In this document: in pieces, positions 3,403 to 12,528 of the stretch
How the letters are laid out: every line of letters starts with the position of its first letter
Numbering within the stretch: position 1 is the first letter of the stretch
Source: Desulfobulbus sp.
Lineage (GTDB): Bacteria; Desulfobacterota; Desulfobulbia; Desulfobulbales; Desulfobulbaceae
Assembly (NCBI GenBank): GCA_030602145.1
Contig: JAUWAH010000024.1
Span: 1 to 12,528 of the forward strand
DNA: 12,528 nt
Reading direction: 5' to 3'
Notes under the pieces: model-generated
Told to the model about the DNA's origin: nothing
Database searches by the model: none
What the model saw: the letters and a program-made list of their open reading frames with translations, nothing else
Program-made: the position numbers and the translations under genes

Positions 3403-4296
3403 ATGGTGCAAGCCTCCTGTGCGCTCCATGTCCCGGTGTTGCACGATGAGGTCCTGGCGTGGTTGCATCCCGGTGCCGACGGTCTGTATGTGGATGCCAC
3501 CCTGGGGCTTGGTGGGCATGCGCAGTCCATTCTGGAGCGGTCGGCACCCACCGGACGGTTGGTCGGCTTCGAATGGGATGAGGAGGCGGCAGAGAAGGCT
3601 GCCCAACGGTTGCAACCCTTTGCGGATCGCGTCCGGATCGTTCGGGCCTCCTACGCTGATTTGGTGCCCGAATTAGGCAAGCTGAAAGTGAGCGGTATCG
3701 ATGGCCTGGTAGCCGATCTCGGTGTCTCTTCCCTGCAACTTGACCGGGCGGAGCGAGGGTTCAGTTTCCGGTCGGACAGCGAGTTGGACATGCGCATGGA
3801 CCAGCGCAAGCCGCTGACCGCCGCCGAATTGGTTGCCAGGCTTTCGGAAGAACAGTTGGCCGATATTTTTTATCACTATGGCGAGGAACGGCAGGCACGA
3901 CGCATCGCCAGGTATCTGGTTCGGGCGCGCCAAACAGAATCGGTGACCACGACCAAGCGGCTGGCTGAGGTGGTAGCCGAGGCGGTGCCCCGAAAAGATC
4001 ATCCCACCAAGGTCCATGTAGCCACCAAGGTGTTTCAGGCTCTCCGGATTGCGGTGAACGGCGAACTCGACAACCTGACCAGGCTGCTCGCCACCGCACC
4101 CGAGGTCCTCAGGCTGGGTGCCAGAATCTGTTGCATCACCTTCCATTCCCTGGAGGATAGGATCGTGAAGCAAACTTTTGCCGACAACCCATCCTACCGG
4201 GTGCTGACCAAACGGCCGGTGGAGCCGTCGGTCGAAGAGGTGGCGCGCAATCCGCGGGCGAGGAGCGCCAAGCTGCGGGTGGCGGAAAGAACGTGA
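3403..4296 (+). CDS. rsmH: 16S rRNA (cytosine1402-N4)-methyltransferase RsmH (MraW)
   Basis: RsmH (297 aa) uses S-adenosylmethionine to N4-methylate C1402 of 16S rRNA in the decoding centre. Family features in order: HVPVLHDEVL at the N-terminus (9-18), SAM motif I VDATLGLGGH (30-39), GFEWDEEA (55-62; the SAM-ribose acidic position is Glu rather than the usual Asp), VADLGVSSLQLD (103-114), the RGFSFR...LDMRMD block (118-133), the FQALRIAVNGEL segment in the helical insertion, ITFHSLEDR, and a C-terminal NPRARSAKLRVAE. Length is normal (about 310 aa). ATG 3403 gives the standard N-terminus; only a weak GGA precedes it, and mraZ ends 13 nt upstream, so coupling is likely. A mraZ-rsmH-ftsL order is usual for the dcw cluster. 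Confidence 0.97.
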   Translation: MVQASCALHVPVLHDEVLAWLHPGADGLYVDATLGLGGHAQSILERSAPTGRLVGFEWDEEAAEKAAQRLQPFADRVRIVRASYADLVPELGKLKVSGIDGLVADLGVSSLQLDRAERGFSFRSDSELDMRMDQRKPLTAAELVARLSEEQLADIFYHYGEERQARRIARYLVRARQTESVTTTKRLAEVVAEAVPRKDHPTKVHVATKVFQALRIAVNGELDNLTRLLATAPEVLRLGARICCITFHSLEDRIVKQTFADNPSYRVLTKRPVEPSVEEVARNPRARSAKLRVAERT

Positions 4297-4322
4297 CGGC
4301 GATGGAGTGCATGAACCCATCG

Positions 4323-4329
4323 GGAGGAG
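4323..4329 (+). promoter_or_regulatory. Ribosome binding site that sets the ftsL start
   Basis: GGAGGAG (4323-4329), within a longer GGGAGGAGA run, lies 5 nt before ATG 4335. None of the upstream in-frame starts (GTG 4293, ATG 4302, ATG 4311) has a comparable site, so 4335 is preferred. Confidence 0.7.
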
Positions 4330-4334
4330 AAGAG

Positions 4335-4697
4335 ATGACATCACAAGTAAACGTTCGGGTCTACAGACCGCGTCAACAGGTGTTGTCGAAGGCGACGCAC
4401 CGAAAAGAGTCCCGGTTCGCGGGCGTGCTGTCCGGTGTGCGGACCAGGGTGCTCGCCGGACTGCTGGCCGTCTCTCTGGTGGTCGGTTTGGCGGTCACCC
4501 AGTGCATCCACGGGCTGATGACGACCATGCATGCCAAGGCGGAGCAGGTGCGCGTGGAGAACATGGCGGTGGCCGACAAGAACATGCGGCTTTTGGCGAC
4601 CCGGGCCCAGATGACCTCCAGAACCCAGGTGGCGGCACTGGCCAAGACCAAGTTGAACCTGTTTGAACCTGATCAGCGGCAGGTGCGTCGGATGTAG
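4335..4697 (+). CDS. ftsL: Cell division protein FtsL (small bitopic membrane protein)
   Basis: This 120-aa protein has the FtsL layout: a basic cytoplasmic N-terminus (about 1-38), one hydrophobic membrane segment (about 39-58, VLAGLLAVSLVVGLAVTQCI), and a short periplasmic helix (about 60-105) with coiled-coil character. It ends in an LNLFEPD motif like the LxLxxP end of many FtsL proteins. In known systems FtsL pairs with FtsB and FtsQ and activates the FtsW-FtsI septal synthase. Primary sequence is poorly conserved in this family, so the call rests on topology plus position between rsmH and ftsI. ATG 4335 is chosen for its strong GGAGGAG site; the frame is open back to GTG 4293, which would overlap rsmH. 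The next gene starts 7 nt downstream. It is notable that the putative partner downstream appears catalytically dead and that ftsW is not in its usual place. Confidence 0.85.
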   Translation: MTSQVNVRVYRPRQQVLSKATHRKESRFAGVLSGVRTRVLAGLLAVSLVVGLAVTQCIHGLMTTMHAKAEQVRVENMAVADKNMRLLATRAQMTSRTQVAALAKTKLNLFEPDQRQVRRM

Positions 4698-4704
4698 CTT
4701 GGCG

Positions 4705-6528
4705 ATGACGAAATCCCTCAGGTCCAGAAAGAAATCGCGACGATGGCTTTTTCCTTTTCTTTTCACCATAATTTTGCTGACAGCAGCTGGCGCCGTTCTG
4801 TATAGAATCCATCCCTCCCTCCAGGATATCGGCAGGATACTACAGTCTGCTGTCGGCAAAATTTCCTCTCGTTCAGCGGGCCAAACGCCCGCTGAAGCTG
4901 TTTTAAGGGGAACGGTGTACGATCGGCGCTGGCGGGAATTGGCAGTATCCTATCGGTTGTTTTCGGTGGTTGTCAATCCGGGAGAAGTGGGTGACCAGCG
5001 GAAGGCAGCGGAAGAGTTGGCCCGGGTGATCGGCGAGAAGCCGGAGGTTCTCGAGAATCGGCTGAAACATGCCCAGGATTCCTTTCTGCTTGCCGAGGAT
5101 CTTGATGCGCAACAGGCCGAACGAATCGAAGACCTCCAGCTCAAAGGGGTCACCTGCAGGGTCGAGGAGGCACGGTTCTACCCCGGTCACGCCACCGCCT
5201 CGCATGTGCTTGGCTTCATGGGCGATCGTGTCGGCCTTGCCGGAGTGGAAGGCAAATATGACACTGTCCTGCAGGCAGGAGGTTTTCGGAAAAGCAACAT
5301 TCCGGACATTGATTTCAAGGGACAGGAAACCCTGGGGACCGGAGGCGCCGATCTGGTGCTGACCCTGGACATGGAGTTGCAGAAACAGTTGGAAAACCGG
5401 TTCCGCGGTTATCTGGCGGCGCAGGGCGCGGAAAAGGGGATGGGGCTGGTGATCGAACCGGCCAGCGGCCGGATCGTCGCCCTGGTCAACCAGCCTTCGT
5501 TCAATCCCAATTATTTCTGGAAGGCCAGCGAAAGCAATCGGGTCAATCGCATCTATAACCATGTGCTCAACAAAGCCCTGATCCGGCCCGTTCTAGCCCG
5601 AGCCGCCGCCATCGAACGGGAAGGTCTGGAGGGACCGCCCCTGCTGCCGGTCACCGTTGCCGCTACCGATTACGGCTTTTCCGAACTGAAGCTGGAGGCC
5701 TTTGAACAGCAGATTCAACTGTACGGATCGGTGTTCGGCAACTGGGAGACAGGGCCAGGGTCACAGCAGGAGGAAGGTGGGGAGCAGGTGGTGACCGGGG
5801 TTCAGGTGGGGGTCACCTTGGCGAGCCTGGTCAACGGTGGCTGGCGGATCACTCCCTATGTGGTTGATTCCATTTACGACCATAAGACAGCCAGTCGCTA
5901 TCCGCGCAACAACGAGGCCACGGAAAAGATCCATGTGCTCGATCCGGCCCTGGGGGTGAAGATTCGCCGGGATCTGTTCACCAACTGGCTGTTGGAACAG
6001 GATAACCTGGTGGCCATCACCGCAGAGCATGCCCAGATGCGCAGGGAAAAGGCCTACTCGCGGTTTTCGATCCAGGAGATGTTCGTCGGCTTTGCGCCGG
6101 CCAGGCAGCCACGGTATCTGCTCCTGGTGGCGGTCGAACAGGATCACCTGTACCCCAGGTCCAACGACAAGGGGAGTGGCCTGGCGGCCCTTGAGGCCAT
6201 GGGCAAGGAACTGCTGGCAGGCTTTGTGAGGAGTTCGTCGGCGGAGACGGTTTCGGACCGTCCGCCGGAACGGAGCCGGGAAAACCTGCAACAGTTTTTC
6301 ATCAGCAAACGGCTGAACTTCCGCGAAGCACCTGGCAAGGCCAACGAGCCGGTCCCGGTGATGCCGCAGATGCGCGGCATGAGTCTGCGCAAGGGGCTGC
6401 AACAGATCGACAAGTTCAAGATGAAGGTACGGATCAACGGCAGCGGCCGGATTGTGGCTCAGTATCCGCTCCCCGGGCAGTCGTTGGTCGGTATCGACGA
6501 ATGCATACTCACCCTTGATTCGAAGTGA
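4705..6528 (+). CDS. ftsI: FtsI/PBP3-like division protein with degenerate transpeptidase site and C-terminal PASTA domain
   Basis: A 607-aa class B penicillin-binding protein homologue in the ftsI position. Seen: a basic N-terminus and one membrane segment (about 14-33); the pedestal motifs RGTVYDR (68-74), ARFYPGHATASHVLGF (from about 156) and GLAGVE (177-182); penicillin-binding fold segments GLVIEPASGRIVALVNQPSFNPN, VTGVQVGVTLASLVNGGW (in about 361-386) and FVGFAPARQPRYLLLVAV (from 460); and a C-terminal PASTA domain (about 548-607). The catalytic motifs are missing: SxxK aligns to A291-L-I-R294, SxN to A320-T-D322, and KTG to T439-A-E441 inside VAITAEHAQ (normally VAGKTGTAQ). The first two motif sites are 29 residues apart, against about 52 in E. 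coli PBP3. The frame is uninterrupted and in register on both sides of each site, which argues for a maintained pseudoenzyme, perhaps a scaffold for FtsL or other divisome proteins. ATG 4705 is chosen over TTG 4663, which lies inside ftsL. Confidence 0.88.
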   Translation: MTKSLRSRKKSRRWLFPFLFTIILLTAAGAVLYRIHPSLQDIGRILQSAVGKISSRSAGQTPAEAVLRGTVYDRRWRELAVSYRLFSVVVNPGEVGDQRKAAEELARVIGEKPEVLENRLKHAQDSFLLAEDLDAQQAERIEDLQLKGVTCRVEEARFYPGHATASHVLGFMGDRVGLAGVEGKYDTVLQAGGFRKSNIPDIDFKGQETLGTGGADLVLTLDMELQKQLENRFRGYLAAQGAEKGMGLVIEPASGRIVALVNQPSFNPNYFWKASESNRVNRIYNHVLNKALIRPVLARAAAIEREGLEGPPLLPVTVAATDYGFSELKLEAFEQQIQLYGSVFGNWETGPGSQQEEGGEQVVTGVQVGVTLASLVNGGWRITPYVVDSIYDHKTASRYPRNNEATEKIHVLDPALGVKIRRDLFTNWLLEQDNLVAITAEHAQMRREKAYSRFSIQEMFVGFAPARQPRYLLLVAVEQDHLYPRSNDKGSGLAALEAMGKELLAGFVRSSSAETVSDRPPERSRENLQQFFISKRLNFREAPGKANEPVPVMPQMRGMSLRKGLQQIDKFKMKVRINGSGRIVAQYPLPGQSLVGIDECILTLDSK

Positions 6529-6541
6529 GCACTGTACGGCA

Positions 6542-9500
6542 ATGACCACCCTGGCGCACCTCCTTCAATCCGTTGATTCCCTGGATGCCGACCGGCTGTC
6601 ATCGGCTGTCCTGGCTGCTACGGTTACCTCGGTGACCGCCGATTCGCGCCAGGTGCAGGCCGGCAGCCTGTTCGTGGCCGTTGCCGGGGCGACAACCGAT
6701 GGCCGTTTGTTCATTCCGGATGCGGTCGCCAAGGGCTGCCTGGCGGTGATCGTCGAGGGTGAAACCATTGGGGACGACCTGCCGGTGCCGGTCATCCGCG
6801 TCGAGGACAGCCATGCGGCAATCGGCGATCTGGCGGCTGCCTGGTATGGTCATCCGGCCAAACGCATGGTGATGATCGGCGTGACCGGAACCAACGGCAA
6901 GACCACCTGCACCTGGCTGATCGAGGCAATGGTGGCGGCCGCCGGCGGTCGCCCCGGCGTCATCGGCACGGTCAACTACCGCTATCATGCCGAGGAGGGG
7001 ATCCATGTCCTCTGCGATGCTCCGTTGACCACCCCAGACCCGCTCACCCTGCAAGGGACCCTGCGGATCATGGCGGACAAGGGGGTCACCCATGTGATCA
7101 TGGAGGTGTCTTCCCATGCCCTGCATCAGCGACGGCTGGGGCGAACCTGTTTCGACGCTGCCCTGTTCACCAACCTGAGCCGCGACCATCTTGACTACCA
7201 TCGGACCATGGATGATTATTTCGCCGCCAAAGAGCGGCTGTTCCGGCACCATCTTAAACCGGACGGTGCGGCGGTGGTGGTGATCGGCCCACGGGCCGAG
7301 GGGGTCGATTGGGGCGCGGCGATCAGCCGGACGGTGACGAGCACGCGGTTGTTTCGCTGCGGCCTTGGCGACAGCGGTTTCGAAGCCGGGGCCGAGGCGG
7401 TGGTTCAGTCGGTGGAAGGGTTTCGCTGTCGTCTCAACCTGCAAGGAGACAAGGCCGATTTCGCCTCGCCGCTCACCGGTGGCTACAATGTGCTCAATGT
7501 GCTGGCCGCCGCCGGGGTCGGACTTGCGCTGGGCTTGCCGGCCGACCGGATTCGTTCGGGTCTGGCCGGGGTCAGCCGGGTCCCCGGTCGGCTGGAACGG
7601 GTGCGGCTGGCCGGAGAAACACCTGGAACAGGGCCTGCGGTTTTTGTCGATTATGCCCACACCCCCGATGCCCTGGAGAACGTGCTGGCCACCCTGCGGT
7701 CGCTGGCCACCGGCCGGCTCATCTGCGTCTTTGGCTGCGGAGGGGACCGTGACCGTGGCAAACGCCCCCAGATGGGAGCAATGGCCGGCCGTCATGCCGA
7801 TGTGGTGATCGTCACCTCCGACAACCCGCGCACAGAGGAACCTGAGGCGATCATCGAGGCCATCGTTCCCGGGGTGACGGCCAGCGGCAAGCAGTGCTAC
7901 GGGCTGGATGAGTTGTTCTGCGGCCCGCAGCCGGCCAATGGGTTTGCCGTCATCGTCGATCGCCGTCAGGCCATCGTCGCCGCCTGCAGCCTGGCCGCAC
8001 CCGGGGACAGCGTCCTCATCGCCGGCAAGGGACATGAGCCCTATCAGATCGTCGGCACGGAAAAACATTTCTTCGATGATCGAATGGAAGCCATCGACGG
8101 CCTGCTCCAGTGGAACGAACGGTCCCTGCTGGCGGCCACCGGCGGCCGGGTGGCGGCCGGCGCCCTGCGGCGGGTGGTGCGACGGATCTCCACCGACACC
8201 CGCAGCCTGGAGGATGGGGAGGTCTTCATTGCCCTGGCCGGGGAAACCTTCGCCGGCCATCGCTATATCGATACCGGCGTCGATGCCGGCGCCGCGGCGG
8301 TGATCGTCGAGAGGCTGCCCGCTACCTGCCGGGATGGCGTGCTGTATCTTCAGGTCGAAGAAACCCTGCGGGCACTCGGTGGCCTGGCTGCCCACCGGCG
8401 GCGGCTGTTGGACGGCGCGGTCAAGATAGCGGCGGTCACCGGCAGTTCCGGCAAGACCACGGTCAAGGAGATGGTGGCCGCCATTTTTGCCGAGGCCCTC
8501 GGCGAGAGCCGCACCTCCACCGGACAACTGCTCAAGACGCAAGGCAATTTCAACAATTTGGTCGGGCTGCCGCTGACCCTCCTGCCGCTTGGCGCCGGTC
8601 ACCGGCTGGCGATCGTCGAGATGGGCATGAATGCGCCCGGGGAAATCGCCCGCTTGACCGAGATCGCCGACCCTGACATCGGCTGCATCAACAATGTCCA
8701 TCCCGCCCATTTACAGGGTCTGGGCAACATCGCCGGCGTGGCGGCGGCCAAGGGCGAGCTGTTTTTCGGCATGCGACCCGAGGCCGTCCGGGTGGTGAAC
8801 TGTGACGATCCCCATGTCCTGGACCAGGCGCGCAGGGCGGGAGGAACGCAGATCGGCTTTGCGGTCACCGCCGCCGGCCGCAGACATCGTCCCCTCGTCC
8901 GGATCACCCGGCCGGTCAACCTCGGCGATCGGGGCATGCGGTTCACCCTGCACATCGGCGACTGGCAGCACCGACTCACCGTGCCGGTATACGGCATGCA
9001 TAATGTCAGCAACTGTGCCGCCGCCGCCGCCATCGCCCATGCGGCCCAGATCGGCTCGGAGATCATTGTCCGCGCCCTGGCCCACTATACCCCCGCGGTG
9101 GACAAGCGACTGGCGGTCAGTCAACTGCCCGGCGGCCTCAAGGTGGTCAACGATGCCTACAATGCCAATCCCGCATCCATGGCCGCAGGCCTCCGCACCG
9201 TGGCGGGTTTCGGTGCCGGGTGCCGGCGGATCGCCGCCCTGGGCGACATGCTGGAGCTGGGTGATGCCTCACCGGCGCTCCATGCCGACATCGGGAGCCT
9301 GGTTGCCCGGCTTGGCTTCGATCACCTCCTGGTCACCGGAGCCCAGGCGGAACAGGTGGCCGGAGCGGCCATGGCGGCCGGCATGCGACCGGAGAATGTC
9401 CACGTCTTGTCCGATCCCCCCGCCAGGGCGGACCCGATCTGCAGGATGCTGGCCGAGGGCGGACTGGGGCAAGGCGATTGGCTGCTGATCAAGGGTTCGC

Positions 9501-9565
9501 GCGGCATGCGCATGGAACGGCTCCTCGAGGAACTGGAGCATCGGCTGCAAACGGCACAGATCTGA
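6542..9565 (+). CDS. murE-murF: Fused MurE-MurF: UDP-MurNAc-tripeptide synthetase / D-Ala-D-Ala-adding ligase
   Basis: One 1007-codon frame encodes two cytoplasmic Mur ligases. Residues 1 to about 523 are MurE, adding meso-diaminopimelate to UDP-MurNAc-Ala-Glu: P-loop VTGTNGKTT (114-122, Lys120), EVSSHAL, NLSRDHLDYH, the likely carbamylated Lys230 in AAKERLF, the meso-DAP signature DNPR (427-430) and GKGHEPYQ near its end. From about 524, a MurF begins directly (WNERSLLAATGG) and adds D-Ala-D-Ala: P-loop VTGSSGKTT (632-640, Lys638), TQGNFNNLVGLPLTLL, EMGMNAPGEI, NDAYNANPASM and LGDMLELG. Each half has full length and intact motifs, and there is almost no linker. ATG 6542, 13 nt after the ftsI stop, gives a normal MurE N-terminus (open frame extends to 6452 inside ftsI). 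No good Shine-Dalgarno is seen, so re-initiation after ftsI is likely. Fusion enforces equal amounts of consecutive enzymes and may favour passage of the tripeptide intermediate. Confidence 0.97.
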   Translation: MTTLAHLLQSVDSLDADRLSSAVLAATVTSVTADSRQVQAGSLFVAVAGATTDGRLFIPDAVAKGCLAVIVEGETIGDDLPVPVIRVEDSHAAIGDLAAAWYGHPAKRMVMIGVTGTNGKTTCTWLIEAMVAAAGGRPGVIGTVNYRYHAEEGIHVLCDAPLTTPDPLTLQGTLRIMADKGVTHVIMEVSSHALHQRRLGRTCFDAALFTNLSRDHLDYHRTMDDYFAAKERLFRHHLKPDGAAVVVIGPRAEGVDWGAAISRTVTSTRLFRCGLGDSGFEAGAEAVVQSVEGFRCRLNLQGDKADFASPLTGGYNVLNVLAAAGVGLALGLPADRIRSGLAGVSRVPGRLERVRLAGETPGTGPAVFVDYAHTPDALENVLATLRSLATGRLICVFGCGGDRDRGKRPQMGAMAGRHADVVIVTSDNPRTEEPEAIIEAIVPGVTASGKQCYGLDELFCGPQPANGFAVIVDRRQAIVAACSLAAPGDSVLIAGKGHEPYQIVGTEKHFFDDRMEAIDGLLQWNERSLLAATGGRVAAGALRRVVRRISTDTRSLEDGEVFIALAGETFAGHRYIDTGVDAGAAAVIVERLPATCRDGVLYLQVEETLRALGGLAAHRRRLLDGAVKIAAVTGSSGKTTVKEMVAAIFAEALGESRTSTGQLLKTQGNFNNLVGLPLTLLPLGAGHRLAIVEMGMNAPGEIARLTEIADPDIGCINNVHPAHLQGLGNIAGVAAAKGELFFGMRPEAVRVVNCDDPHVLDQARRAGGTQIGFAVTAAGRRHRPLVRITRPVNLGDRGMRFTLHIGDWQHRLTVPVYGMHNVSNCAAAAAIAHAAQIGSEIIVRALAHYTPAVDKRLAVSQLPGGLKVVNDAYNANPASMAAGLRTVAGFGAGCRRIAALGDMLELGDASPALHADIGSLVARLGFDHLLVTGAQAEQVAGAAMAAGMRPENVHVLSDPPARADPICRMLAEGGLGQGDWLLIKGSRGMRMERLLEELEHRLQTAQI

Positions 9566-9577
9566 GAAGAAACCATT

Positions 9578-10657
9578 ATGTTCTATAACCTGCTCTATCC
9601 CTTTCATACCGACCTGAGCTGGCTCAACGTTTTTCGGTATATCACCTTTCGTTCCATCGGCGGGGCGGTGACTGCTTTTCTGATCGTGGTCATCATCGGC
9701 CCCCGATTTATCGCCTGGCTGCAGCGCAAACAGATCGGCCAGGTGATCCGGGACGACGGCCCGGAAACCCATTTTTCCAAGAAAGGGGTGCCGACCATGG
9801 GCGGCGTGTTGATCCTGTTTGCCATGACCGCCTCGACGCTGCTCTGGACCGATCTGCGCAGCAGCCTGGTCTGGCTGCTCATCGGCATCAGTCTCTTCTT
9901 CGGGGCCATCGGTTCGGCCGACGACATTAAAAAAATCCGCAAAGGCAATTCCAGAGGGCTGAGCGCCCGTGAGAAACTGATCCTCCAGGTTCTCGGAGCG
10001 ACGGTGGTTGGCGTGTTCTTGCTGGTCACCAAGAGCCATGACGGCATCCTCAGTTTCCCCTTTTTCAAGACCTTTCACCCCGATCTGGGTTGGTGGTATC
10101 TGCCCTTCGCGGTCCTGGTCATTGTCGGCGCCTCCAACGCAGTCAACCTCACCGATGGCCTGGACGGTCTCGCCACCGGTCCGATCGTGATCACCGCCTC
10201 CACCTATCTGATCTTTTCCTATGTGGCCGGCAATGCGGTGGTGGCCAGTTATCTCCAGATTCCCTTCGTGCCGGGAGCCGGCGAGGTCACCGTCTTCTGC
10301 GGCGCCATCGTCGGCGCCTGCCTGGGTTTTTTATGGTTCAACTGCTATCCGGCGGAGATCTTCATGGGCGATGTCGGCTCCCTCTCCCTGGGGGGCACCC
10401 TGGGGGTGGTTTCGGTGATCACCAAGCAGGAATTCTTGCTGGTGATCGTCGGGGGCATCTTCGTCATGGAGGCTGTTTCAGTCATTTTGCAGGTGGGCTA
10501 TTTCAAGATGAGCGGCGGCAAGCGAATTTTTCTCATGGCGCCCTTTCATCACCATTTCGAGAAAAAAGGCTGGCTGGAAACCAAGGTGGTGGTCCGGTTC
10601 TGGATCGTTTCCATCATCCTGGGGCTGATGGCCCTGGCCACCCTTAAGCTGAGGTAG
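9578..10657 (+). CDS. mraY: Phospho-N-acetylmuramoyl-pentapeptide-transferase MraY
   Basis: MraY (359 aa, E. coli 360) is the polytopic inner-membrane enzyme that transfers phospho-MurNAc-pentapeptide from UDP to undecaprenyl phosphate, making lipid I. The sequence has about ten hydrophobic segments and the family's catalytic residues: ADDIKK (D115, D116), NAVNLTDGLDGLA (187-199, including D193), FMGDVGSLSLGG (D265) and the HHH motif in MAPFHHHFEKKGW (H324-H326). The N-terminal FRYITFRS and GVPTMGG are also typical. ATG 9578 lies 12 nt after the murE-murF stop and is preceded by a purine-rich GAGAAGAAA. The next gene, murD, starts 3 nt after its stop. Nothing unusual is seen. Confidence 0.98.
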   Translation: MFYNLLYPFHTDLSWLNVFRYITFRSIGGAVTAFLIVVIIGPRFIAWLQRKQIGQVIRDDGPETHFSKKGVPTMGGVLILFAMTASTLLWTDLRSSLVWLLIGISLFFGAIGSADDIKKIRKGNSRGLSAREKLILQVLGATVVGVFLLVTKSHDGILSFPFFKTFHPDLGWWYLPFAVLVIVGASNAVNLTDGLDGLATGPIVITASTYLIFSYVAGNAVVASYLQIPFVPGAGEVTVFCGAIVGACLGFLWFNCYPAEIFMGDVGSLSLGGTLGVVSVITKQEFLLVIVGGIFVMEAVSVILQVGYFKMSGGKRIFLMAPFHHHFEKKGWLETKVVVRFWIVSIILGLMALATLKLR

Positions 10658-10660
10658 AAC

Positions 10661-12037
10661 GTGCAGGTGCGAAGCGGCATGCAGGCGGCGGTGATCGGAC
10701 TGGGGGCGGCAGGGCTGTCCACGGTACGGTATCTGCTGAATCGGGGAGTGCGGGTCCGGGTGTCGGACAAGCGACCTCTTGACCAGATCGAGCCTTCAAC
10801 GGTCCAATGGCTTGATCAGGCCGGGGTGAGCATGGAAACCGGAGCGCATACCGACGCCATGCTCGCCGGTGCCGACCTGGTCGTTCCCGGTCCCGGTGTG
10901 CCTCTCGATCTGCCGGTCCTGGCAACGGCCCGGGCACATGGGCTGCCGATCCTCGGTGAACTGGCCCTGGCGGCCGGCGGATTTGAGGTGCCGGTGATCG
11001 CGGTCACCGGCTCCAACGGCAAGACCACGGTGACCAGCCTGATCGGTCACCTGCTGCGGGCGGCAAACAGGAAACCCTTTGTCGGCGGTAATATCGGCAC
11101 GCCCCTGCTCGAGTACTTTGCCGATCCGGACGGGTATGATGCGGTGGTGCTCGAACTCTCCAGTTTTCAACTCGACCTGGCCGGATCCTTTCGGCCCGAT
11201 ATCGGCCTGCTGCTCAATATCTCGCCGGATCATCTCGACCGTCATGGCACCCTGGCCGCCTATGCCGAGGCCAAGATGCGCCTGTTCAGCTCTCAGAAGA
11301 CGGGCGATATCGCCATCCTGGGCAGCGACGACGCGCTGGCAGCGAATGCTCCGGTCAATGCCGGGGTGCAGCGCTGCACCTTCGGCCGGACCGCCGGGTG
11401 CGAGGCACTGATCGCCGACAGCCGGGTGATCATTGCCCTGGATCGGGGCGGCGAGAAGCAGCAGGAGATGTACGACCTGGGCTCGACCAGGCTCCATTCC
11501 TCGGTCAACCGGTTGAACGCCGCCGCCGCCCTCCTGGCCGCCACCCTGCATGGCTGCGCCGCCGCCGACCTGCGGCGCGGCCTGGCCGATTTCGAGCCGC
11601 CACCGCACCGCATGGCCGAGGTGGCCATCATCGACGGGATCCGATTCGTGGACGATTCCAAGGCCACCAACATCGGTGCCCTGGAGGCGGCCCTGGTCGG
11701 CTGCGAAGCCCCGGTGGTGCTCATTGCCGGCGGCCGGGACAAGAACAGCGACTTCAACCTGCTGCGAAACGTGGTCCAAGCCAAGGTCAAGCATCTGGTG
11801 CTGATCGGCGAGGCAGCCGATTTGATGGAGGCAGCCCTTGGGACGGTGGTCGCAACGGAGCGGGCCACCACCATGGCGGATGCAGTGGGACGAGCCAGGT
11901 CAGCGGCGGTCGGCGGCGACCTGGTGTTGCTGGCCCCGGGATGCGCCAGTTTCGATATGTTCTCCGGCTATGCGGAACGGGGAAGGGTTTTTGCCGAACA
12001 GGTCCGGCTCCTGGGCGGGACTACGGCAAGAAAGTAA
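10661..12037 (+). CDS. murD: UDP-N-acetylmuramoylalanine--D-glutamate ligase MurD
   Basis: MurD (458 aa) adds D-glutamate to UDP-MurNAc-L-Ala in the cytoplasm, the step before MurE. Motifs in order: Rossmann-type N-terminus AAVIGLGAAGLS (9-20), P-loop VTGSNGKTT (115-123, Lys121), ELSSFQLD (165-172), NISPDHLDRHGT (186-197), the likely carbamylated Lys205 in YAEAKMRLF, DDSKATN, GGRDKNSDF and the C-terminal LAPGCASFDMFSGYAERG. GTG 10661 has GAGG (10651-10654) 6 nt upstream; ATG 10679, six codons in, has AGGTG upstream and is a fair alternative (452 aa). It begins 3 nt after mraY and ends at TAA 12035-12037, whose last two bases begin an AAGGAGG site for the next ORF. In most dcw clusters the following gene would be ftsW; here it is not. 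Confidence 0.97.
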   Translation: MQVRSGMQAAVIGLGAAGLSTVRYLLNRGVRVRVSDKRPLDQIEPSTVQWLDQAGVSMETGAHTDAMLAGADLVVPGPGVPLDLPVLATARAHGLPILGELALAAGGFEVPVIAVTGSNGKTTVTSLIGHLLRAANRKPFVGGNIGTPLLEYFADPDGYDAVVLELSSFQLDLAGSFRPDIGLLLNISPDHLDRHGTLAAYAEAKMRLFSSQKTGDIAILGSDDALAANAPVNAGVQRCTFGRTAGCEALIADSRVIIALDRGGEKQQEMYDLGSTRLHSSVNRLNAAAALLAATLHGCAAADLRRGLADFEPPPHRMAEVAIIDGIRFVDDSKATNIGALEAALVGCEAPVVLIAGGRDKNSDFNLLRNVVQAKVKHLVLIGEAADLMEAALGTVVATERATTMADAVGRARSAAVGGDLVLLAPGCASFDMFSGYAERGRVFAEQVRLLGGTTARK

Positions 12038-12049: not shown

Positions 12050-12271
12050 ATGATTCGCGTCTGTTGCGTTTGTCGCAGAATCGAAACCAACGGGACCTGG
12101 GAGACACGCACCTGTCTGCCTGACCATCAATGGATCACCCATGGCTATTGTCCGGAATGCTTTGCCGAGGCGATGGCCGAGGTTGAGGAGTTGGTGGGTG
12201 AGTTGACTGCGGGAGGCGGTAACGGGACAGCCTGTGGTGTCATGGACGGACAGGGGGGACGATGCGGTTGA
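12050..12271 (+). CDS. Small cysteine-rich, probable zinc-binding protein in the usual ftsW position
   Basis: A 73-aa protein that I cannot assign to a named gene. It starts MIRVCCVCRRIETNGTW and has two Cys pairs, C5-x2-C8 (with an extra C6) and C34-x2-C37 in HGYCPECF, making a likely four-Cys zinc site; C22, C62 and C72 are further cysteines. The pattern (CxxC with 'R-I', an aromatic after a Gly turn, then HGxCPxC) resembles a small zinc-finger-like module I know from the C-termini of some PAS or response-regulator proteins, here free-standing. Residues 38-52 are acidic and helical-looking, and the tail is Gly-rich. There is no membrane segment, so it cannot be FtsW. ATG 12050 is set by a strong AAGGAGG. 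Its last 10 nt overlap the murG start (12262), so it may control or couple murG translation. Function unknown; regulatory or redox roles are guesses. Confidence 0.75.
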   Translation: MIRVCCVCRRIETNGTWETRTCLPDHQWITHGYCPECFAEAMAEVEELVGELTAGGGNGTACGVMDGQGGRCG

Positions 12272-12528
12272 TTGTGGCCGGCGGCGGAACCGGCGGGCAT
12301 CTCTTTCCCGGCATCGCCGTGGCCACTGCTGTCCGGGAGCGGCTGGACAGCAGTCGAGTACTGTTCATCGGGACCTCACGCCTGCTTGACCAGCAGGCCC
12401 TGGCCGGACTGGGGTTTGAACTGGCGGCCCTGGAGTGCGGTGGTGTCAAGGGGTTGGGCTTTGGCGGCCGGCTACGCAGCTTGCTGATGATGCCCGGCGC
12501 CATTGTCGAAGCGGTCCGATTGTTGCGT
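12262..12528 (+). CDS. murG: MurG, N-terminal part (3' end outside window): lipid II-forming GlcNAc transferase
   Basis: The first 89 codons of MurG, running off the right edge. MurG is a peripheral inner-membrane GT-B glycosyltransferase that adds GlcNAc from UDP-GlcNAc to lipid I, forming lipid II. The N-terminal glycine-rich motif RLIVAGGGTGGHLFPGIAVA is diagnostic (GGGTGGH at 7-13, with the catalytic His13). VLFIGTSR and the later GGVKGLGFGGRLRSLL, matching the family's G-L-x-G-K-G segment, support it. ATG 12262 is preceded by a G6 run (12253-12258) and lies inside the end of the small cysteine-rich ORF in another frame (10-nt overlap), so translation is probably coupled. Confidence 0.96.
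   Translation, partial: MRLIVAGGGTGGHLFPGIAVATAVRERLDSSRVLFIGTSRLLDQQALAGLGFELAALECGGVKGLGFGGRLRSLLMMPGAIVEAVRLLR

Follow-up and report, generated by a model that had tools for sequence, protein, structure and literature searches.

A maintained FtsI pseudoenzyme in the ftsW-less dcw cluster of Desulfobulbus and its order

The dcw cluster in the window and its ftsI-slot gene

The window, by which we mean the whole stretch of 12,528 nucleotides analyzed here, comes from a sulfate-reducing bacterium and forms contig C121 in a genome of 2.8 Mb and 72% completeness. Judged by its FtsI-slot protein, designated FtsI*, the closest named relatives belong to Desulfobulbus (D. elongatus, 78%, and MAGs), which places the genome in this genus, and we take its order to be Desulfobulbales. 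The genes run ruvC-ruvA-ruvB-mraZ-rsmH-ftsL-ftsI*-murEF-mraY-murD, followed by a small Cys-rich ORF and murG, where the first three are presumably ruvC, ruvA and ruvB from their sequences. All features located below lie on the + strand. The rsmH (mraW) ORF (3403..4296) was aligned with RsmH of relatives for a tree, and ftsL (4293..4697) was assigned by position, the Pfam FtsL score being only 14 bits. Downstream of the ftsI-slot gene, murE and murF form one ORF of ~1000 codons (6542..9565, start set at an internal ATG); the same fusion occurs in relatives, G044, G140 and G185 among others. It is followed by mraY (9578..10657), an ORF aligned with MraY of relatives, and by murD (10661..12037), which matches Pfam Mur ligase/MurD. 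The gap between murD and murG, the canonical place of ftsW, is occupied by the small ORF (12050..12271), which contains CxxC pairs and has no Pfam match over the cut-off. The 5′ part of murG (MRLIVAGGGTGG...; 12262..12528) is an ORF open at the window end with no ftsW ahead of it. From murD through the small ORF to murG, ftsW was not found in the window.

The ftsI-slot gene (4705..6528) encodes the 607-residue FtsI*, recognized from its ORF, its Pfam matches and its orthologues in the order as a catalytically dead FtsI orthologue. Its 607 open codons had been noted in the original prediction, and we confirmed an uninterrupted ORF from an ATG. A hydrophobic stretch at residues 15-32 (4747..4800) was assigned as the N-terminal membrane anchor by sequence and position, and these residues form a helix in a low-confidence AlphaFold2 model built from a shallow alignment of 15 close relatives (mean pLDDT 40.5). 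The PBP_dimer (pedestal) domain covers residues 66-190 (4900..5274; Pfam PF03717, 57 bits) and keeps many canonical pedestal invariants. Residues 552-594 (6358..6486) are PASTA-like, scoring 20.3 bits against PF03793, below the cut-off of 23.2; the C-terminal region was aligned by hhalign with the PASTA end of canonical FtsI. PDB FtsI chains match FtsI* across query residues 63-271, and hhalign against canonical FtsI gave a probability of 100 across residues 66-606. The Pfam Transpeptidase score is only 34 bits, compared with 285 bits in the canonical FtsI L129. FtsI* thus resembles FtsI/PBP3 in its dcw slot between ftsL and murE, its N-terminal anchor and its pedestal, and resembles the canonical FtsI of this phylum in its PASTA-like end. 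Unlike FtsI/PBP3, it has neither a transpeptidase domain with SxxK, SxN and KTG nor a cognate SEDS partner, FtsW.

Loss of the catalytic motifs and conservation of the remaining protein

The original prediction placed the three lost motifs at A291-L-I-R294, A320-T-D322 and T439-A-E441. These residues are found at those positions, where all three motifs are missing, although the details of the correspondence needed revision. For SxxK (5575..5589), the loss holds and the register does not: three alignments (MAFFT; hhalign, probability 100) shift it by one residue and set L292-I-R-P295 under S-x-x-K. Ser and Lys are absent in either register. Among 98 orthologues of the order, Ser occupies its column in 2% and Lys in 4 sequences, and no sequence has both together. 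SxN is likewise absent, but it has not been replaced as had been proposed; the order alignment shows that the segment bearing it is deleted. In 97/98 sequences the alignment has a gap where the Ser would stand, and therefore A320-T-D322 (5662..5670) is not a real equivalent of SxN. The loss of KTG stands as well, and T439-A-E441 (6019..6027; residue check and hhalign) marks its strand only approximately, since sequence divergence here leaves the register uncertain; Lys is kept in 3% of the 98 sequences, Thr in 0% and Gly in 1%.

Overall, each of the seven motif columns is kept in at most 4% of the 98 order sequences. A strict ordered SxxK-SxN-KTG triple was found in 0/98 orthologues, compared with 42/42 FtsI proteins from other families of the phylum, and a loose triple occurred in 10/98, no more often than in shuffled sequences (262/1960). 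The 98 orthologues include 76 of the 78 class-sample genomes, all 78 of which belong to the order. Four genes cut by contig ends (G007, G016, G034 and G047) and one split gene (G027) are counted among them, and five genomes with no usable FtsI* (G013, G020, G028, G038 and G043) lie outside; L140 (G074), being of the MrdA type, was excluded from the canonical set. Alignment with FtsI of related genomes thus extended the motif loss to the order, and this loss of the transpeptidase/acylation motifs is strongly supported at the level of sequence. Chance or a local sequencing error in the window was rejected because every examined orthologue of the order has the same loss. Because the motifs are lost, FtsI* is predicted not to bind beta-lactams covalently.

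To look for a second, intact FtsI, we ran a profile built from 27 canonical FtsI proteins on 42 genomes. This profile scored 631-931 bits in the six searched genomes that have FtsI. Among the matches listed, no intact FtsI was found elsewhere in 17 genomes of the order, where the best matches were MrdA (210-278 bits) and partial FtsI*; the exceptions for MrdA were a score of 97 bits in a cut contig of G000 and no MrdA match in G003 and G240. PF00905 likewise gave no second strong FtsI-like match in 55 relatives, among the matches listed (at least ~34 bits), which by length and score were MrdA-like, class A-like or, in a few cases, short proteins. In the window's own genome, three matches are class A PBPs (C61, C415 and C203) and one is a carboxypeptidase (C172); the motifs could be read as intact in C61, C415 and C172.

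The remaining parts of the protein are under constraint. Among 18 sequences of the genus, the ten closest pairs gave whole-gene dN/dS values of 0.08-0.17 for ftsI*, and where computable by part, residues 291-400 gave 0.05-0.15 and residues 401-490 gave 0.03-0.20. These NG86 estimates, some with saturated dS, were made for ftsI* only, without a neighbouring gene as control. The comparison across orthologues therefore indicates purifying selection at a ratio of ~0.1, the parts in the dead domain included. Canonical FtsI has 75 invariant or near-invariant sites, 29 ahead of the active site and 46 others. The alignment behind these counts also took in 9 of the 17 slot proteins from other one-SEDS families described below, those shorter than 430 residues being excluded. 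Within the order, 18 of the 29 are at least 92% kept, and R139, Y141, P142, G152, G160, G163, E165, D211, G244 and P253 are kept in 99-100%. The other 11 are poorly kept (for example F108 in 24%, R113 in 29%, D184 in 28% and G187 in 2%). Only N413, G415 and P420 (canonical numbering) among the other 46 are similarly kept, in 93-97%. A separate observation concerns one single-contig genome, in which FtsI* is split over two overlapping frames (L100; G027:C1:2301300-2304400).

With its catalytic motifs lost lineage-wide and its gene under purifying selection, FtsI* is, on sequence grounds, a maintained pseudoenzyme and not a decaying one. The structural role that had been considered plausible gains support from the purifying selection and the pedestal conservation, which point to a maintained noncatalytic function.

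FtsW, other one-SEDS families and the remaining wall enzymes

Exactly one SEDS protein was found in 74/78 genomes of the order. The exceptions are G018, with two pieces of one frameshifted gene, and G000, G003 and G240, with none. The frameshift in G018 (L235; G018:C1:137400-139000) breaks rodA, the first part being in frame 0 and the second in frame 2. The missing rodA of G000 is probably just unsampled, because the mreC-mrdA contig ends inside mrdA. Wherever both places were compared in the order, the single SEDS gene adjoins mrdA, like rodA. Eight dcw clusters of the order (L141-L146, L150 and L237) pass from murD to murG without ftsW, and murD-ftsW-murG was read in L147 and L148. FtsQ, FtsA and FtsZ are present in all eight order clusters read. 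The order is thus without FtsW and without an active FtsI, as is a class A PBP-driven divisome of the Clostridioides difficile type.

A phylum sample of 141 genomes outside the order comprised 108 genomes with two SEDS proteins and 28 with one. From the latter, 17 FtsI-slot proteins of nine families (f28, f35, f39, f40, f65, f66, f72, f75 and f76) were read; all 17 are without the motif triple and, at 248-643 residues, are dead or shrunken. The lone SEDS gene adjoins mrdA, and is hence rodA, in 7/17 (G067, G103, G132, G155, G079, G140 and G074), and FtsW loss is only presumed in the other 10 because the location of their lone SEDS was not established. The f28 cluster, read across murD-murG (L149), is without ftsW. 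The other one-SEDS genomes comprise G068 and G072, in which the SEDS gene lies ~6-7 kb from an intact FtsI on the same contig, where ftsW is expected; G055, G116 and G189, with an intact FtsI and a SEDS gene whose place was not tied to it; G069, G099, G143 and G179, outside the FtsI comparison; and G113 and G114, not included among the proteins read. A pedestal and a weak transpeptidase remnant score above the cut-offs in f66, f72 and f76. No recognizable pedestal was found in the f35 and f65 slot proteins tested, and therefore the pedestal is not always needed. PASTA matches in two f35 proteins fell one over and one below the cut-off, and the f65 protein tested gave no match, yet it ends in PASTA-like sequence. 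Where ftsW would stand after murD, both families have an unrecognized ORF for a multi-helix membrane protein (L151, L152 and L158); three copies, tested as partial sequences, matched no Pfam family and reached no significant score for SEDS. This ORF may be a decayed FtsW beside a decayed FtsI.

In a tree of RsmH, MraY and MurE from 45 genomes, the order falls into a wider group with other one-SEDS genomes of this kind (SH-aLRT 97), and f28 and f35+f65 stand apart, giving three changes in the best tree. The AU test did not reject one common clade of these genomes (p = 0.228), and the starred branches of the tree offered only one independent pair, too few for a test. One to three losses of FtsW are possible, and we do not claim several independent losses.

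At least one GT51 protein was found in 28/29 genomes of the order or of the other one-SEDS families (1-6 each), seven of the 29 having exactly one. The count was 1-7 in 14 genomes with an intact FtsI, and the numbers do not clearly separate genomes whose FtsI is dead from those in which it is intact. One very long class A PBP (L004; G000:C203) has an ORF exceeding 1000 codons and a transpeptidase domain that carries a large insert, and GT51 proteins of ~1100 residues recur across the order. Most genomes of the order retain RodA and MrdA. SEDS, MrdA and MreC were not detected in the 99%-complete G003, of the same genus, which still has FtsI* and, in addition, three class A-sized GT51 proteins; its missing neighbouring genes could be one assembly gap. 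G240, of the same family (2.0 Mb, 90%-complete), still carries mraZ-rsmH-FtsI*-murEF (L192 and L236), and SEDS, GT51, MrdA, MreC and YkuD were not detected there. L,D-transpeptidases were rejected as a general substitute cross-linker because 5/29 genomes (G240, G067, G074, G110 and G079) gave no YkuD match.

A putative role for FtsI* in the divisome

The active site and FtsW have been lost and FtsI* is still under selection; therefore, other enzymes probably build the dividing wall in these bacteria. We lean toward the reading that FtsI* is a noncatalytic divisome scaffold and that a class A PBP makes the septal wall instead of FtsW-FtsI. By descent and position FtsI* is an FtsI orthologue, and the lineage in which its three catalytic motifs disappeared has also lost the glycosyltransferase partner, FtsW. 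FtsI* would stay in the divisome with its anchor and pedestal bound to FtsL/FtsQ/FtsB and would recruit or switch on a class A PBP; this bifunctional enzyme would polymerize and cross-link the septal wall in place of FtsW-FtsI. We count in favor of this reading the motif loss in the order and in all 17 slot proteins of other one-SEDS families, the failure to find a second FtsI or an FtsW, the purifying selection, the well-kept sites ahead of the active site, the retention of FtsQ, FtsA and FtsZ, the near-universal GT51, and G003, which has GT51 but no detected SEDS, MrdA or MreC. Counted against it are RodA and MrdA, which most genomes of the order keep and which could act at the septum; G240, which has FtsI* but no detected GT51, SEDS or MrdA, though it is only 90% complete; the possible assembly gap in G003; and the similar GT51 numbers with dead and intact FtsI. 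The scaffold part is weakened by the pedestal-free slot proteins of f35 and f65 and by the 11 poorly kept invariants ahead of the active site. For the broader proposal, that the order and several further families use a third kind of division engine in which FtsW is gone, FtsI acts as scaffold and activator, and a class A PBP both polymerizes and cross-links the septal wall, we consider the case evenly balanced.

The retention of a single SEDS gene in nearly all genomes of the order, next to mrdA wherever compared, suggests another arrangement, in which RodA and PBP2 (MrdA) build both the side wall and the septum and FtsI* is an adaptor bringing the pair to the Z ring. We consider this possible but rather unlikely. 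FtsI* is kept in G003 and G240 without detected SEDS, MrdA or MreC, and rodA is frameshifted in G018, although an assembly or sequencing fault may account for each of these cases. FtsI* might instead be only a wall-binding anchor or checkpoint, whose PASTA-like end binds septal peptidoglycan and which governs no synthase; the f35 and f65 slot proteins, which consist only of a hydrophobic stretch near the N terminus and a PASTA-like sequence at the other end, fit this idea. We regard it as unlikely: in the order, the pedestal core is conserved beyond the needs of a mere tether, and the PASTA match is absent in the two f39 proteins tested.

The split gene of G027 and the strongly shrunken versions in some families would be expected if ftsI* were a decaying gene retained by chance in its operon. 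This is highly improbable given a dN/dS of ~0.1 that extends to the dead domain and the preserved pedestal core; moreover, no copy among the 98 other than that of G027 was seen to be split, and the four further incomplete ones are cut by contig ends. Even harder to credit is a transpeptidase still active through an intact motif set elsewhere in the protein or a new mechanism. A fold remnant is recognizable (34 bits), and N413, G415 and P420 are kept, but the strict triple is absent from all 98 proteins, the loose triple appears at the shuffled rate and the motif columns are at most 4% kept.

Noncatalytic scaffolding by a division PBP and septal synthesis by a class A PBP both have parallels in the literature. 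The original prediction invoked a catalytically dead B. subtilis PBP2B that supports division, and this precedent is real (PMC5656894). The analogy holds for a dead PBP with a structural role and is incomplete as to the compensation. PBP2B S309A is a laboratory mutant whose activity is covered by another class B PBP, PBP3, whereas FtsI* is natural and lineage-wide, extending through the order and further families, with ftsW missing and no second intact FtsI found. FtsW-FtsI has been considered universally conserved and essential for septal wall synthesis, with C. difficile as the exception (PMC10693644). Vegetative division in C. difficile likewise proceeds without the FtsW-FtsI pair (PMC10693644, PMC12539705), and its class A PBP1 makes the septal wall (PMC12539705). 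We propose this synthase as a parallel, in which the GT51 proteins, scored here by presence, would have the same role. The two systems differ in that SpoVE/SpoVD of the C. difficile dcw cluster serve sporulation, whereas the order keeps a dead FtsI in an ftsW-less cluster. Contacts of the proposed kind have been described in E. coli, in which PBP1b is said to reach midcell by binding FtsI (PMC12539705) and FtsBLQ inhibits the polymerase of PBP1b, to which it binds (PMC6325244).

The absence of ftsW was known before. ftsW and ftsN are absent from four Desulfobulbaceae genomes in a study that treats FtsI as an ordinary recruited divisome protein (PMC7873302), and ftsW has been lost from the cluster in Thermodesulfobacteria (PMC8871954). 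Both agree with our data on the missing ftsW, and the parts of these papers that were covered do not mention the loss of the FtsI active site. Our literature searches, with most subscription papers outside their scope, found no report of a natural dead FtsI in these bacteria, and within that literature the active-site loss is apparently unreported. It bears on annotations and division models in which the FtsI of this group figures as a normal divisome enzyme, for example the model for cable bacteria (PMC7873302).

A whole order has dropped FtsW and switched off FtsI, yet it keeps the dead FtsI under selection. Beta-lactams that act via FtsI should not act through FtsI* in these bacteria. If the proposed reading is true, the loss of FtsW would release FtsI from needing an active site, and the graded natural series from full-length pseudoenzyme to remnants of ~250 residues would reveal the part of FtsI that is still required once catalysis is gone. 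The long-standing question of what FtsI does besides cross-linking thereby becomes directly testable in cultivable bacteria.
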